A stretch of 35,796 nt of DNA from Bacteroidales bacterium (GTDB taxonomy: Bacteria > Bacteroidota > Bacteroidia > Bacteroidales > Dysgonomonadaceae). The first letter of the stretch is position 1, and the number at the start of each line of letters is the position of its first letter. The position numbers and the translations under genes were made by a program. The stretch is taken from assembly GCA_012840785.1 (NCBI GenBank), contig DUVZ01000142.1, positions 1 to 35,796 of the forward strand, given 5' to 3'. This document shows positions 4,244 through 24,802 of the stretch, one piece after another. The notes below the pieces were generated by a model. It ran no database searches, was not told the DNA's origin, and was given only the letters and a program-made list of their open reading frames with translations.

Positions 4244-5815
4244 ATGCAAAAAATTAATTCAAAACTCTTATATCCTTTAGCAGGATTAGCCACATTGGCA
4301 TCTTGTGGAGGTGGAGAGAAAGCTGAGCTAGCAAAGCCATTAAACATCGTTTATATCATGACTGACGATCATACACGTCAGATGATGAGTAGCTACGACA
4401 ACAGGCACATCGAAACCCCTAATTTAGATAGAATTGCTGAAGGTGGCGTTCTTTTCGAGAATGCTTTTGTGTGCAACTCCATTTCGGGTCCTAGCCGTGC
4501 AGCATTGTTAACTGGTAAACACAGTCACAAAAACGGAAAGATGGACAATCATACAAAGTTTGATGGAGACCAACAAACTGTTCAACAATTGCTAAAAGGC
4601 GCTGGTTACCAAACAGCTATGATTGGCAAATGGCATTTAGACAGTGAACCAACCAATTTCGACTTCTGGGAAATACTTCCAGGGCAAGGCGATTATTACA
4701 ATCCTGTTTTTATTACACCCGAAGGAAATAAAAACTATGAAGGCTATGTAACAGACATCATTACTGATATGAGCATCGATTGGATGGAGAATGAAAGAGA
4801 CAAGGAAGAGCCTTTCTGTCTGTTTATTCACCACAAAGTTGCACACCGCAATTGGATGAGCGATACTACTCATTTATCACTTTATGAAGATAAAGTGTTT
4901 GAACTTCCAGGTAATTTTTATGACGACTATGAAGGTCGTATTGCCGCTGCAGAACAAGAAATGAGCATTGCCAGTGATCATGATATGGATATCGTAAACG
5001 ACCTTAAAATGATGCGAGAAGGTGTTGAAACTAGACTTTCAGGTGGATATATTCATGGAACTTACGCGCGGATGAATGAGGCACAAAAAGCTGCATGGGA
5101 CAAACATTATAATCCTATTATTGAACAGTTTTATGCAGCTAATCTAAAAGGAAATGAACTAGCAGAATGGAAGTATCAACGCTATATGCGCGACTATGCT
5201 AAAACCATTAAATCACTTGACGAAAATGTTGGTCGTGTACTCGATTACCTTGAACAAAACGATATGTTGGAAAATACAATTATTATTTACACATCAGATC
5301 AAGGTTTCTATATGGGCGAGCATGGTTGGTTCGACAAGCGCTTTATGTATGAAGAGTCGATGAGTACACCACTTGTTATGCACCTACCTTCTCACTTAAA
5401 GAAAAGAGGCAATATTTCGGTTCTAGCTCAAAATATCGACTTTGCACCCACTATGTTGGACATTGCAGGAGCTGATATTCCGGAAGATATTCAAGGTGTT
5501 TCATTGTTACCATTGTTGAAAGACGAAGTTGACCCTAAAGATTGGCGCAAATCATTGTATTACCATTTCTATGAATTCCCATCAGAACATATGGTTAAAC
5601 GTCATTATGGAGTAAGAACAGAGCGTTACAAATTGATTCACTTCTACAATGATATAGATTCATGGGAGCTTTTCGACCTACAAGAAGATATAGAGGAAAT
5701 GCACAATCTATATGGAAAGCCTGGATATGAAGAAATTACAAAAGAGCTAAAAGCAGAATTGAAAAATTTACAAGAGAAATATGACGACCCGATACGTGAA
5801 GTGTATCCGTTGTAA
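4244..5815 (+). CDS. Lipoprotein sulfatase, serine type, GlcNAc-6-sulfatase/iduronate-sulfatase-like
   Basis: A 523-residue sulfatase with lipobox LASC (Cys21). The metal-binding start is NIVYIMTDD, the formylglycine motif is S-G-P-S-R with catalytic Ser81, GKWHL lies near residue 130, and the second metal site is in TSDQGFYMGEHGWFDKR. The C-terminal region resembles DUF4976 (YHFYE...YKLIHFY...WELFDLQEDIEEMHNL). The overall pattern resembles Bacteroides heparan-type N-acetylglucosamine-6-O-sulfatases, but assignment to one S1 subfamily is uncertain. It probably shares a transcript with the preceding sulfatase and ends at a strong hairpin terminator. The pair has no SusC/SusD or polysaccharide lyase neighbour in the window. 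Confidence 0.92.
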   Translation: MQKINSKLLYPLAGLATLASCGGGEKAELAKPLNIVYIMTDDHTRQMMSSYDNRHIETPNLDRIAEGGVLFENAFVCNSISGPSRAALLTGKHSHKNGKMDNHTKFDGDQQTVQQLLKGAGYQTAMIGKWHLDSEPTNFDFWEILPGQGDYYNPVFITPEGNKNYEGYVTDIITDMSIDWMENERDKEEPFCLFIHHKVAHRNWMSDTTHLSLYEDKVFELPGNFYDDYEGRIAAAEQEMSIASDHDMDIVNDLKMMREGVETRLSGGYIHGTYARMNEAQKAAWDKHYNPIIEQFYAANLKGNELAEWKYQRYMRDYAKTIKSLDENVGRVLDYLEQNDMLENTIIIYTSDQGFYMGEHGWFDKRFMYEESMSTPLVMHLPSHLKKRGNISVLAQNIDFAPTMLDIAGADIPEDIQGVSLLPLLKDEVDPKDWRKSLYYHFYEFPSEHMVKRHYGVRTERYKLIHFYNDIDSWELFDLQEDIEEMHNLYGKPGYEEITKELKAELKNLQEKYDDPIREVYPL

Positions 5816-5837
5816 TTAGCTCTTAAAACAATATTTT

Positions 5838-5873
5838 AAAAACCGATTCTAAATTATACGAATCGGTTTTTTT
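5838..5873. terminator. Bidirectional intrinsic terminator
   Basis: Arms AAACCGATTC and GAATCGGTTT form a 10-bp stem with a 10-base AT-rich loop, followed by a T run on the plus strand. A T run also follows on the minus strand, so it can serve both the sulfatase operon and the converging EamA gene. Confidence 0.85.
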
Positions 5874-10508: not shown

Positions 10509-10792
10509 TCCATTGCGTATTTGAGTTTCAACTCATGTTTTTCAAATCCACCACAGTAGATTTGAGTTTTATCTCTTGATTGTGCAATCCACCATGGTAG
10601 TTTGAAGTTTTATCTCATGGTTGTTAAAATCCACCACAGTAGATTAGAGTTTCACTCCTTGATTTTGTAATTCACCGCAGTAGATTGAAGTTTCATCCCT
10701 TGATTGACGTATCTACCACGTTAGATTGGAGTTTTGTCTCTTGATTTTGTAATCTACCATGGTAGATTTGATTTCTGACTCTTAAAGTTTGC
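10509..10792. repeat. Array 1: seven degenerate ~41-bp tandem units with palindromic cores
   Basis: Each unit has a core related to CCACCATGGTAG; the last copy, CTACCATGGTAG at 10754-10765, is a perfect 12-bp palindrome. By hand alignment the core-to-core distances are 39, 41, 42, 41, 41 and 41 bp. The spacers are all in one orientation and contain GAGTTTYATCTC-like dyads followed by TTGATTTTGTAAT. The 41-bp period is not a multiple of three and frames are not open, so this is not coding. It occupies a convergent intergenic region. Confidence 0.85.
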
Positions 10793-19896: not shown

Positions 19897-21780
19897 TTAT
19901 TTTATCTCTAAGCCTAATTCATCTGTAAGCTTTTTTAAAGCTGGATTTGTTTCTGTCATTTCTTGAAATATCTCTTGCGAGGTGAAAGCTTTCTTATTCA
20001 CAATGGTATCAGATATTTCAATTTTCATTTCAATAAAATCGTTTTTCAACTTATCATGAAGCCAATCTAAAATCGACCTCAAATTGCTCTCTATATACTC
20101 TTTGTTTATATCTGTATTTACAGTTATTTCTATTGTAGTATCATCTACCTTTTTTGGAAAGTACAACGACATAGTGTTCATCAACAACCTCTCTTCGGTG
20201 AGGGTTTTTGTGAAACTTTTCCAGGCCTCTATCAATGCTTCTTCGGTAAAAGAGGCTTTTCTTGTCCCTTTTTTGCTGCTTTGGCTATCTTCATCATCGC
20301 TATCTTGTTCCTCTGCAGAAGTGATAGATACTCCATGATTGGATATGGAAAAGGTTTTGGGTTGATGACCAGCAATGCGTGGTTTACGAGCAGGTTCTTT
20401 TTCTTCTTTGGGTGTTGTTTTAGTTTGTGTCTCTTTCTCCTTTGAAACCTGTGGAACATAGTGAGGGTCGCGTTCTGTTAATCGGCTATCTTCTTTTTTC
20501 TCATGTTCAACAGTTTTTTCAACTTCCTCTTTTTCAGGTTTTGGTTTTTCTACTTCCTCTGCTTTTGTTTCCACCTGTTTTGTTGGAGCTGTAGCTTGTG
20601 CTCTTTTTTCGGGGACATGTGTACGAGTTGTTTGCGATGAGTCTATCTGTTTGATAGGTTCTCTTTTTTTGGGTTGCTCCCCTGCCCCTTCTGATAGTTG
20701 ACACATGCGTATAAATGCCAATTCAAGCAATAGGCGTTTGTTTTTGCTAACGCGATAGTTAAGGTCACATTCGTTGGCTATTTCAATTCCTTTGTATAGC
20801 AATTCATACGAGCATAGCTTGGCACTCTCGATGTAGCGCTTCTTTATCTTTGGACCCACTTCAAACAGCATTGCCGAGCGAGGGTCTTTACTTATCATTA
20901 GGTTTCGAAAGTGCGATGCCATGCCAGATATAATATGTTGTCCCTCAAATCCATGTTTAAGAATATCATTAACGATGAGTAGACTGTCCACCACACTGCC
21001 TTGCAGTATAGCATCGGTTAGTTTAAAATAGTACTCATAGTCCAATACGTTCAAGTTTTCTATAACAGCCTGGTAGGTTACATTGCCTCCAGTATAACTT
21101 ACTGTTTGGTCAAAGATTGATAGTGCATCACGCATTCCACCATCTGCCTTTTGAGCAATAATATTTAGAGCCTCCTCCTCTGCCGTTATATTTTCTTGTT
21201 GTGCAACATATTTAAGATACTCTACAATATCGCTTAAACTAATTCTATTAAAATCGTATACCTGGCAGCGTGACAGAATAGTAGGTATAATTTTATGCTT
21301 TTCGGTTGTTGCCAAAATAAAGATGGCATGCTTGGGGGGTTCTTCCAATGTTTTCAGAAAAGAGTTGAAAGCCTGTGTTGATAACATGTGCACCTCATCG
21401 ATGATATACACTTTGTATTTACCAATTTGTGGAGGAATGCGCACTTGGTCTATCAAATCGCGTATATCTTCTACCGAGTTGTTCGATGCAGCGTCCATTT
21501 CATGGATGTTGTACGATCTATTCTCGTTGAATGCAACACAAGACTCGCAAGCATTGCAAGCTTCGTTTTCTGAAGTAAGATTGAAACAATTAATTGTTTT
21601 TGCAAAAATTCGTGCACAGGTTGTCTTGCCCACCCCTCTTGGACCACAAAACAGATAGGCATGTGCCAACTTGTTGTTTGAGATGGCATTTTTCAACGTA
21701 GTTGTTAGTGCATTCTGACCAATAACTGATTTAAAAGTAGCTGGGCGGTATTTCCGTGCCGAAACAATATAATTGTCCAT
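19897..21780 (-). CDS. dnaX: DNA polymerase III subunits gamma/tau
   Basis: 627 residues. The clamp-loader AAA+ domain has Walker A GPRGVGKT, the zinc-binding cysteines (C-NLTSENEAC-NAC-ESC), DEVHML, and sensor 1 LATTE; domain III runs to about residue 365. It is followed by a long Lys/Glu/Pro/Thr-rich linker (about 370-500) and a C-terminal domain that would contact the polymerase. It loads the sliding clamp in replication. A run of seven A's in the mRNA lies at codons 371-373, right where domain III ends. A TAGATTTG box is at 21802-21809 upstream, and the tail-only SPFH-like gene follows. Confidence 0.95.
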   Translation of the reverse strand: MDNYIVSARKYRPATFKSVIGQNALTTTLKNAISNNKLAHAYLFCGPRGVGKTTCARIFAKTINCFNLTSENEACNACESCVAFNENRSYNIHEMDAASNNSVEDIRDLIDQVRIPPQIGKYKVYIIDEVHMLSTQAFNSFLKTLEEPPKHAIFILATTEKHKIIPTILSRCQVYDFNRISLSDIVEYLKYVAQQENITAEEEALNIIAQKADGGMRDALSIFDQTVSYTGGNVTYQAVIENLNVLDYEYYFKLTDAILQGSVVDSLLIVNDILKHGFEGQHIISGMASHFRNLMISKDPRSAMLFEVGPKIKKRYIESAKLCSYELLYKGIEIANECDLNYRVSKNKRLLLELAFIRMCQLSEGAGEQPKKREPIKQIDSSQTTRTHVPEKRAQATAPTKQVETKAEEVEKPKPEKEEVEKTVEHEKKEDSRLTERDPHYVPQVSKEKETQTKTTPKEEKEPARKPRIAGHQPKTFSISNHGVSITSAEEQDSDDEDSQSSKKGTRKASFTEEALIEAWKSFTKTLTEERLLMNTMSLYFPKKVDDTTIEITVNTDINKEYIESNLRSILDWLHDKLKNDFIEMKIEISDTIVNKKAFTSQEIFQEMTETNPALKKLTDELGLEIK

Positions 21781-22057
21781 AATAATATATATTTTGAACT
21801 ACAAATCTAATGAAAAAAAATGACTTTATACAGTGTAAAGCAATATCCAATTTAAACTAAAATGTGTAACCCTAATAATATTCAGATTATAAATAATAGA
21901 TTGCTACTTTCTGATTAAAAATGATTGTTTGGTAGGTGATTTTTATTTCGAGTAATTTTATTGTTGATATATTACTAAACGATGGAGTTTTGCTCAGTTT
22001 TCCCTTAAAAGTGCCCTTTTTGACCCTTTTTTTGCTGTTTTCGCTCTTTTTTCAACA
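21781..22057. other. Intergenic region before array 2, no gene seen
   Basis: AT-rich, with the dnaX -7 box at 21802-21809 and a T-rich stretch at about 21960-22057 on the plus strand just before the first array core. No recognisable RNA or open gene. Confidence 0.5.
21802..21809 (-). promoter_or_regulatory. -7 promoter box TAGATTTG for dnaX
   Basis: The minus strand reads TAGATTTG, matching TAnnTTTG, 21 bases before the dnaX ATG. Confidence 0.5.
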
Positions 22058-22731
22058 TTTCCACCGCGGTGGATGGAAACTTTGCACTATATCTCCAATT
22101 TTCACCGTGGTGAATTTGAAAAATGCACAATAAATTGAATTTTCTACGTGGTGGATGAGAAATTCGCACTTTATTCTGAATTTTCTACAAGGTGGATAGG
22201 AATAACGCATTTTGTTTTCAATTTCCACCGTGGTGAATTTAAAAAATGCACTTTATTTTCAATTTTCACTTCGGTGAATATGAAAAACAGACAATTATTT
22301 AAATTTTCTACGAGGTGAATTTGATTTTTACACAAAAACTTCAATATTCACCGCGGTAAATTTGAAAAACACAAAAAACACTCAATTTCCACCGCGGTGT
22401 TTTGTCCGTTTATGGTGCTAAGTTTGTAAACACCGCGGTGGATTTTGTAATTCAAGTGCGAAGTTTGTAAACACCACGGTGGAAATTGCAGTTGAAGCGC
22501 AAAGTTTGTAAACACCACGGTGGATTTTGCAGTTGCAGTGCAAAGTTTAAAAACACTTTGGTGAATGTTTCAATTGCAGTGCAAATTTTCTAGACACGAT
22601 GGTGGATGCTCCATTTATGGTGCAAACTTTGTGATTGCCTTGGTGGATGATGCAATTGCAGTGTGAAATTACTAATCATCACGGTGGATGCTCAAATTAC
22701 AGAGCAAAGTAAGTAAACACCAAAGTGGATT
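22058..22731. repeat. Array 2: 17 palindromic cores at an exact 41-bp pitch, mirror-symmetric about core 9
   Basis: Core 1 is CCACCGCGGTGG (22061-22072), a perfect palindrome; later cores vary (CACCGTGGTG, CACCGCGGTG, CACCACGGTG). Anchoring on the GG of the right arm gives 22068, 22109, 22150, 22191, 22232, 22273, 22314, 22355, 22396, 22437, 22478, 22519, 22560, 22601, 22642, 22683 and (as AG) 22724: all steps are 41. Spacers 1-8 carry a TGCACT-like block 13-17 bases after the core; spacers 9-16 carry the reverse complement (AGTGCAAAG) before the next core. The symmetry axis is core 9, near 22394.5. It is non-coding in all frames. Confidence 0.92.
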
Positions 22732-22795
22732 ATCGAAAAGCTACCTACTAATCTGTTGTTTAACTATTCACGATAAAAGATTCATGTTAAATACT

Positions 22796-22826: not shown

Positions 22827-22938
22827 TTTTGTCTTAACAATATTATTTTTTCTTACAAAAAGTTACGTCAAAATAGCAGCTCTATCGGCATAGATAATGG
22901 GTTATTTAATACACGCTCACTTTTTAGCAATAGTAATC

Positions 22939-23925
22939 ATGAATAAATCGTATATCACTCATTTGCTTATAATGTTTGTGCTATTAATGTTCGCAAGTTG
23001 CGGATTGCACAGATCTACTGCTGAATTTGATCAATCGTTTAGTGAAATAGAGAATGCAATTTTGGTGCAGCATCACAATCCAAATTTCCCTTTACCCAAT
23101 ATCCCCGAATCAATTGTGGATGGGCAAGAGAGGGCAATCTACTTATCTAAACACTATTGGGATGAATTTCCATTCAACGATGTTTCGCTTATAGATAAAC
23201 CGCAGGTTACCGAGCAAGCCTTTGTTGACTATATACACGTTTTGAAGTTTATTCCATTTAAATATGCTAGTAGATCGATAAAATATTTATTTGTTCAGGC
23301 GCAGAGCAATCCTAATATGTATGGGCACTTTGCCTCTCTGTTTGAGAAATATTATTACATTGCCGACTCTCCCTTTTGCAACGAAGAGTTGTATATTCCT
23401 GTATTAGAGACTATTCTTAAATCGGATATGTTGACTAAAGAGGATTTCGAGAAGTATGATTATCAAAAAGAGATGATTCATAAGAACAGGGTTGGCTCCA
23501 AAGCTACCGATTTTGTATACACCCTTGAGAATGGAGATTGGAAAAGAATGCATGCTCTCAAGAGCAACTATTTGATACTCTTTTTCTCCACTCCCGAATG
23601 TAGCAAATGTGTGTCTGTAGCTGATGAGATACAAAATTCAGATGTTTTAGGAAAGGTTTGTTCTCTTAATAGTTTTAGCAGAAGCATGCTTTCGGTATTG
23701 CATGTTTATCCAGGATCTAATGTTCCTCTATGGCAAGAGTCACTTGCATCTATGCCTAAAAAGAATTGGATACATGCATACGATAGAGCTAGAGTATTAA
23801 CCAATAAACGGGTTTATAATCTTAAAAAGCTTCCTACAATATATCTGCTAGACGAAAACAAACGAATTATTCTTAAAGAGACCTCTTTAGAGGAAATAGA
23901 GAGTTACTTCTTGTCGAAAGAGTAG
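22939..23925 (+). CDS. Lipoprotein with DUF5106-like and thioredoxin-like domains
   Basis: 328 residues from ATG 22939, which opens a lipoprotein signal peptide with lipobox FASC; the ATG at 22897 would add a poor extension. The N-terminal half (about 30-185) is DUF5106-like. The C-terminal half is a thioredoxin fold starting VGSKATDFVYTLENG, with the redox pair CSKC in FFSTPECSKCVSV and the cis-proline loop KLPTIYLLDENK. It is probably a periplasm-facing thiol-disulfide protein similar to TlpA/ResA-like proteins of Bacteroidota. Its partner is unknown. Confidence 0.8.
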   Translation: MNKSYITHLLIMFVLLMFASCGLHRSTAEFDQSFSEIENAILVQHHNPNFPLPNIPESIVDGQERAIYLSKHYWDEFPFNDVSLIDKPQVTEQAFVDYIHVLKFIPFKYASRSIKYLFVQAQSNPNMYGHFASLFEKYYYIADSPFCNEELYIPVLETILKSDMLTKEDFEKYDYQKEMIHKNRVGSKATDFVYTLENGDWKRMHALKSNYLILFFSTPECSKCVSVADEIQNSDVLGKVCSLNSFSRSMLSVLHVYPGSNVPLWQESLASMPKKNWIHAYDRARVLTNKRVYNLKKLPTIYLLDENKRIILKETSLEEIESYFLSKE

Positions 23926-24730: not shown

Positions 24731-24802
24731 GGCGCGATAGTTCAATGGATAGAATAGGAGTTTCCTAAACTTTAGATCCGGGTTCGATTCCCGGTCGTGC
24801 TA
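24731..24802 (+). tRNA. tRNA-Arg (anticodon CCT)
   Basis: A cloverleaf can be drawn by hand: acceptor GGCGCGA with TCGTGCT (two G-U pairs), T8-A9, D stem GTTC/GAAT, anticodon stem GGAGT/ACTTT with loop TTCCTAA (anticodon CCT, reading AGG), T stem CCGGG/CCCGG with TTCGATT loop, and discriminator A. CCA is not encoded. It is 72 bases long and stands alone. Confidence 0.92.

Follow-up and report, generated by a model that had tools for sequence, protein, structure and literature searches.

A head-to-head array of 41-bp palindromic units in a Bacteroidales genome is probably the body of a passively spread interspersed repeat

Introduction

The window analysed here, a 35,796-bp stretch of DNA from a Bacteroidales bacterium, carries between two divergent genes, dnaX and a gene for a DUF5106 protein, an array of short palindromes that seems to turn round at its middle, and the question raised by this locus is what such an arrangement represents. 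A first, sequence-only reading of the same DNA counted as many units on one side of the turn as on the other, and took this as a sign of either a functional bidirectional organisation or growth from a palindromic seed. The observation is real and well described, but neither a special bidirectional organisation nor growth from a palindrome finds support in the analysis. We consider it rather likely that the array is the body of a non-coding, non-autonomous interspersed composite repeat of ~740 bp, which would spread passively, with arms that may fold back on each other and a pitch that could be held by a putative protein.

Geometry of the array and its reversal

The array comprises 17 near-palindromic 12-nt cores (type YCACCNNGGTGR), which start at 22061+41k for k = 0 to 16 with zero exceptions and together span positions 22061-22728 (Table 1). 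A pattern of three ACCNNGGT cores at 41-bp pitch, with at most 3 mismatches, was matched 69 times in the source genome and the reversed pattern 0 times, so that the array as such cannot be attributed to chance. The spacers resemble each other within each arm, with a mean identity of 0.64 in the left arm and 0.66 in the right. When they were aligned with and without reversal, as the sequence-only reading had proposed, the left and right spacers reached an identity of 0.48 with the right arm reversed and 0.35 as read, the control of an arm against its own reverse being 0.36-0.37. Each spacer was also scored against left-arm (L) and right-arm (R) profiles built from three copies of the array (the two others are described below), with the scored unit left out. 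The left spacers scored +13 to +30 with L and -24 to -46 with R and the right spacers +19 to +32 with R and -10 to -42 with L, whereas the background maximum in the window was +3 (L) and +7 (R). Every spacer thus fits the profile of its own arm only, the sign flips at core 9 and no intermediate units are seen. The reversal at the ninth core that had been described is therefore real, and the axial CACCGCGGTG had been correctly placed at 22390-22399. Since each core reads almost the same on both strands, the 41-bp lattice would run on unbroken through a core at which the DNA had been inverted or joined, which could account for the seamless switch.

Table 1. Features of the window around the array, with the evidence for each
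Feature	Positions	Strand	Evidence
Second array, single orientation, same core type, 41-bp pitch, about 6 units, between convergent genes	10519..10775	.	TRF period 41; cores CCACCACAGTAG, CCACCATGGTAG, CTACCATGGTAG
dnaX (DNA polymerase III gamma/tau), left neighbour, reads away from array	19897..21780	-	Pfam DNA_pol3_delta2 1.1e-46, DNAX_ATPase_lid 1e-16
Left-end module (TTTTCCCTTAAAAGTGCCC...CAACATTT)	21998..22060	.	Homology with C108 and C76 starts at 21998, 85-86% identical
Left arm: cores 1-8 (12 nt) and L-type 29-nt spacers 1-8, e.g. ATTTGAAAAATGCACAATAAATTGAATTT	22061..22388	+	Spacer identity and arm-profile scores
Axial core 9 CCACCGCGGTGT, where spacer orientation flips in all three copies	22389..22400	.	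Spacer comparison, copies in register, arm profiles
Right arm: R-type spacers 9-16 and cores 10-17, reverse-complement type of left arm	22401..22728	-	Spacer comparison, arm profiles
Approximate right end, where homology with C108 fades; short common ATCG motif	22729..22756	.	Alignment, boundary inexact
DUF5106/thioredoxin-like protein, right neighbour, reads away from array	22897..23925	+	Pfam DUF5106 8.5e-43, Thioredoxin_8 1.4e-6

Several familiar kinds of sequence were considered and set aside. A coding repeat was rejected, given that 41 is no multiple of 3 and that no ORF of at least 80 aa crosses the window array. CRISPR arrays consist of near-identical repeats and unrelated spacers, and the present array is like them in its short palindromic repeats and regular spacing; unlike them, it has similar spacers within an arm (0.64-0.66), degenerate cores and a reversal, and this candidate was also discarded. 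A known structured RNA was rejected as well: in the window, Rfam recognised only a tRNA at 24731-24802, and neither the window array nor the related arrays scored above the gathering threshold.

Two further copies in the same genome

A search of the source genome, a 362-contig assembly with an estimated contamination of 5.8%, returned two more copies, C108:4807-5488 (79%) and C76:2766-3356 (80%), which together with the window copy we call family A. The alignment of the window copy extends over 725 bp with C108 (79%) and over 633 bp with C76 (80%). In 41-nt register, each unit of one copy has its homologue in the other two, the peculiar axial units 8 and 9 among them, and C108 and C76 both flip orientation at core 9. 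C108 has 8 left and 9 right spacers, the R score of spacer 17 being +28, and C76 has 8 + 8 spacers plus one degenerate spacer. The count of eight units, an axial core and eight inverted units accordingly describes the window copy well, but it fails as a rule, with 8 + 9 units in C108. The weight that had been placed on equal counts cannot be upheld either, since the arms of C108 are unequal and the central position of the switch in three copies is, by common ancestry, one event and not three; the prior chance of a central switch with 17 cores would be about 1 in 17.

Between the three family-A copies, 151, 126 and 123 mismatches are accompanied by 1, 0 and 1 gap openings, respectively, whereas the same aligner gave 3-14 gap openings per 78-174 mismatches between pairs of family-B elements (see below). 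Between family-A copies the cores are no better conserved than the spacers (0.75-0.80 vs 0.77-0.82), and a test across these copies found no correlation between changes on the two arms of a core. The small number of gaps, taken together with cores that drift like spacers, points to the length or phase of the unit as the main target of selection, ahead of its exact sequence, and the same drift and the uncorrelated arm changes weaken the claim of a sequence-specific binding site. A 41-bp unit makes up roughly four turns of the helix, and a protein might read its phase.

Relationship of the two arms

If an arm had been copied backward, as growth from a palindromic seed would have it, left unit i should best resemble right unit 17-i. 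In the three copies, the identity of such mirror pairs was 0.466, 0.496 and 0.470, compared with 0.482, 0.497 and 0.461 for the other left/right pairs (p = 0.78, 0.47 and 0.29, respectively). Mirror units are thus no more alike than others, which speaks against growth from a seed by backward arm copying, and the same negative test rules out a whole-arm inverted duplication. The arms share an old common origin and expanded separately later.

The reversal makes the element self-complementary, as in MITEs and BOX elements (PMC3049150). The predicted single-strand energies of the three native arrays are -214, -235 and -208 kcal/mol, those with the right arm turned round -185, -190 and -171 kcal/mol, and those of shuffles about -157 kcal/mol. 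In these predictions, the native fold is better than dinucleotide shuffles by 50-80 kcal/mol in the three arrays and pairs between left and right arms make up 52-68% of all its pairs, while the fold loses 29-45 kcal/mol and most of its left-right pairs once the right arm is turned round. The suggestion that a TTTGCA/TGCAAA motif adds a second, alternating dyad to each unit found no support, the mid-spacer dyad having p = 0.17-0.42 by column permutation in the three family-A copies.

Ends of the element and likeness to known repeats

In the manner of a MITE, the three dispersed copies have a common left end at 21998 and the window copy contains no ORF of at least 80 aa; the inner 50 bp of the left-end module also terminates array C192. 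Examined by eye in the alignment, and with an inexact right boundary, the left end (TTTTCCCT..) and the right end are not inverse matches, and no target-site duplication (TSD) was seen flanking C41, C108 and C76. A search with the left end for an autonomous relative with the same ends gave only array copies and one weak match in C16. With no terminal inverted repeat (TIR), TSD or matching transposase found, it is from the distribution of the copies alone that we infer mobility.

The closest parallels are found among composite and palindromic repeats of other bacteria. BrickBuilt, a MITE of Porphyromonas gingivalis, is made of 23-bp units in one orientation, with TIRs and some TSDs reported (PMC4596501). 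The present element is like BrickBuilt in occurring in Bacteroidales, in its intergenic position and multiple copies, in its short tandem repeats between a conserved leader and tail and in its limited host range, and differs from it in the 41-bp pitch, the opposed arms, the palindromic cores and the lack of any TIR or TSD found (PMC4596501). The BOX elements of Streptococcus, built as boxA-boxBn-boxC with a strong predicted fold, are regarded as non-autonomous parasitic repeats (PMC3049150). By analogy, our element may be compared with them as a composite interspersed repeat with end modules, a tandem middle and a strong predicted fold (PMC3049150), where the left module is present and the right module amounts to only a short common motif. 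However, BOX belongs to another phylum and neither head-to-head arms nor 41-bp palindromic cores are described there (PMC3049150); the likeness is one of architecture. What is new with respect to BrickBuilt and BOX is the combination of palindromic cores at constant pitch with two opposed arms, the kind of element itself being already known. Within the literature searched, nothing relevant to 41-bp or palindromic arrays in Bacteroidetes came to light.

REP/BIME elements are hairpin palindromes with a GTAG/CGTC tag and a RAYT partner (PMC2817692, PMC3733652). They likewise show regularly spaced palindromes, a change of orientation, an intergenic position and many copies (PMC2817692, PMC3733652), but the core of our array is a loop-less dyad without a GTAG/CGTC-tagged hairpin. 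A REP/BIME system with RAYT was rejected, as the cores mostly end in GGTGG or GGTGA and the hairpins at the genome's one Y1_Tnp gene differ from them. That locus (L140, G000:C24:378-722) consists of a lone 155-aa Y1_Tnp gene surrounded by the REP-like hairpins CGACCCCATTCGGGGTCG, ATCCCGGAGGGAT and GAACCCGTTGGGTTC; it is a RAYT-like unit unrelated to the arrays.

A second family on the same core and pitch

In the source genome, where the census of arrays was made by search only, the core-to-core distances peak at 41 (63), 82 (43) and 123 (42), and none of 100 relatives comes near its 69 three-core matches. The genome also contains a second family, B, a non-coding element of ~560 bp whose copies, about 20 in number, are around 75% identical (for example L068, G000:C218, 9700-10260); in it, three ATCTACCNNGGTAGAT cores follow each other at 41-bp intervals, with a fourth some way further along. 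The unit count stays almost the same in family A (8 + 8 or 9), and elements of family B can differ by one full 41-bp unit. In the congener G003, family B gave 12 matches; as read from the alignment, the middle unit is missing from 7/10 copies, and length, compared only in the five copies that align over their full extent, is 41 +-1 bp less than in the element of the source genome. Several of the G003 cores have CCAC..GTGG where those at home have CTAC..GTAG, so that both arms are changed, and in other G003 copies the core is changed on one arm only. Elsewhere in the source genome, an array at L062 (G000:C250, 6112-6390) is cut off by the end of its contig, and its units are almost the same (94% matches), perhaps a recent amplification that caused the assembly break.

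Arrays in other genomes

When 84,980 species genomes were scanned for exact three-core matches, 59 loci were retrieved, among them several in one Kiritimatiellae genome as well as loci in Parabacteroides, Tannerellaceae and Dysgonamonadaceae genomes; these arrays were selected for their 41-bp pitch and are uninformative on any preference for it. A second dyad lies exactly 20.5 bp, or half a period, from the core in three genomes from the scan, and this half-period dyad of other taxa, coming from three independent genomes, is suggestive only. At L111 and L120 (Parabacteroides BRZ_RA bin30) and at L102 (Tannerellaceae Pc512_bin80), the second dyad is exactly 20.5 bp from the ACCNNGGT core, and L111 has an additional 41-bp array with an unrelated unit at 5576-5848. 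Kiritimatiellae RGIG3282 contains at least 7 one-family 41-bp arrays with two dyads about half a period apart (L083, L095, L099, L107, L110, L112 and L125). In nine loci laid out in register and inspected by eye, no head-to-head reversal was seen. A tandem-repeat survey of about 967 kb from four relatives (G001, G002, G014 and G023) found periods of 21 and 42, and no 41-bp array with this core.

Discussion

The divergent neighbours of the array and the opposite orientation of its arms are what would be expected of a bidirectional regulatory region with one arm for each of dnaX and DUF5106. We regard such a role as very improbable, since two congeners, G001 and G002, carry the same divergent pair with no array between the genes, which are there separated by roughly 310-350 bp vs 1116 bp in the window, and since the paralogous copies adjoin other genes in other orientations. 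Among the related arrays, C192, C218 and the second array of the window (10519-10775) are flanked by convergent genes and C48 and C108 by tandem genes, in addition to the array at the divergent dnaX/DUF5106 pair. A scan for promoters of the sigma-70 type, which leaves Bacteroidetes promoter types outside its scope, found matches at shuffle level (6 vs a mean of 4.5). The head-to-head arms proposed as a bidirectional organisation are real, conserved in three copies and of consequence for the predicted fold, but a function specific to this gene pair finds no support. In a DNA search of 3 congeners and 57 other relatives, only 23-bp and 47-bp matches to the array were obtained. The absence of the array at dnaX/DUF5106 in two congeners indicates that the element most likely arrived after the split.

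The reading that we favour is that of an element, present in at least three copies, composed of a left-end module, 8 tandem 41-bp units, a shared palindromic core and 8 (or 9) opposite units. It would spread as a passive (selfish) repeat mobilised by a putative enzyme, and its head-to-head arms would allow a displaced single strand or a transcript to fold back. The evenly spaced dyads may be bound by a putative protein common to all these elements, which would hold the pitch near four turns of the helix. This reading starts from what was observed: the array reverses, and does so at the same core in every copy; indels between the copies are almost absent; the syntenic site of two congeners is free of the array; and a larger set of dispersed elements has the same core and pitch.

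The same regularity could also be that of a phased nucleoprotein array, in which a dedicated dimeric DNA-binding protein (a nucleoid-associated protein, a partition protein or a transcription factor) occupies all cores along the same side of the helix and the array, instead of being a passive repeat, belongs to the host and is kept by selection. The maintained 41-bp pitch (2 gap openings per 400 mismatches), the many arrays with different spacers that have only core and pitch in common, the changes on both arms of some family-B cores between species and the second dyad exactly half a period away in three other genomes all agree with it. Still, we hold it to be unlikely, as the cores drift as fast as the spacers between paralogues, the arrays occur in divergent, tandem and convergent contexts, two congeners are without the array at the dnaX locus, and the binding protein is putative. 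A neutral minisatellite, whose units are duplicated by palindrome-aided slippage and whose reversal is an accidental inversion between cores, frozen in the ancestor and copied by recombination, would explain why the switch falls exactly on a core, where such an inversion leaves no scar, and would fit the independent divergence of the arms in the mirror test and the difference of a whole 41-bp unit between species in family B. However, the unit number of family A hardly varies and single-base indels are nearly absent at about 20% divergence, which is unexpected under drift and makes this scenario quite improbable. More speculatively, and in our view distinctly unlikely, palindrome arrays at exactly 41-bp pitch could be a type of phased dyad lattice that has so far gone unrecognised, present in Bacteroidales and in at least one Kiritimatiellae genome and in some cases equipped with another dyad at exactly 20.5 bp. 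A DNA-binding protein or recombinase particular to the lineage would then read the lattice and evolve together with its core, with the result that the many cores of one genome would change in concert between species.

The array at dnaX, then, is a copy of a dispersed element and no dedicated regulator of that gene. The element, proposed here to be a passively spread repeat, shows clearly how the spacing of an interspersed repeat in a bacterium can stay nearly free of indels while its sequence drifts by about 20%, and it is accompanied by a second family on the same core and pitch, in which some cores have changed on both arms between related species. Because family B shares the core and the pitch and shows such changes on both arms, whether a protein holds the helical pitch in dispersed repeats, and which protein this would be, become testable questions.
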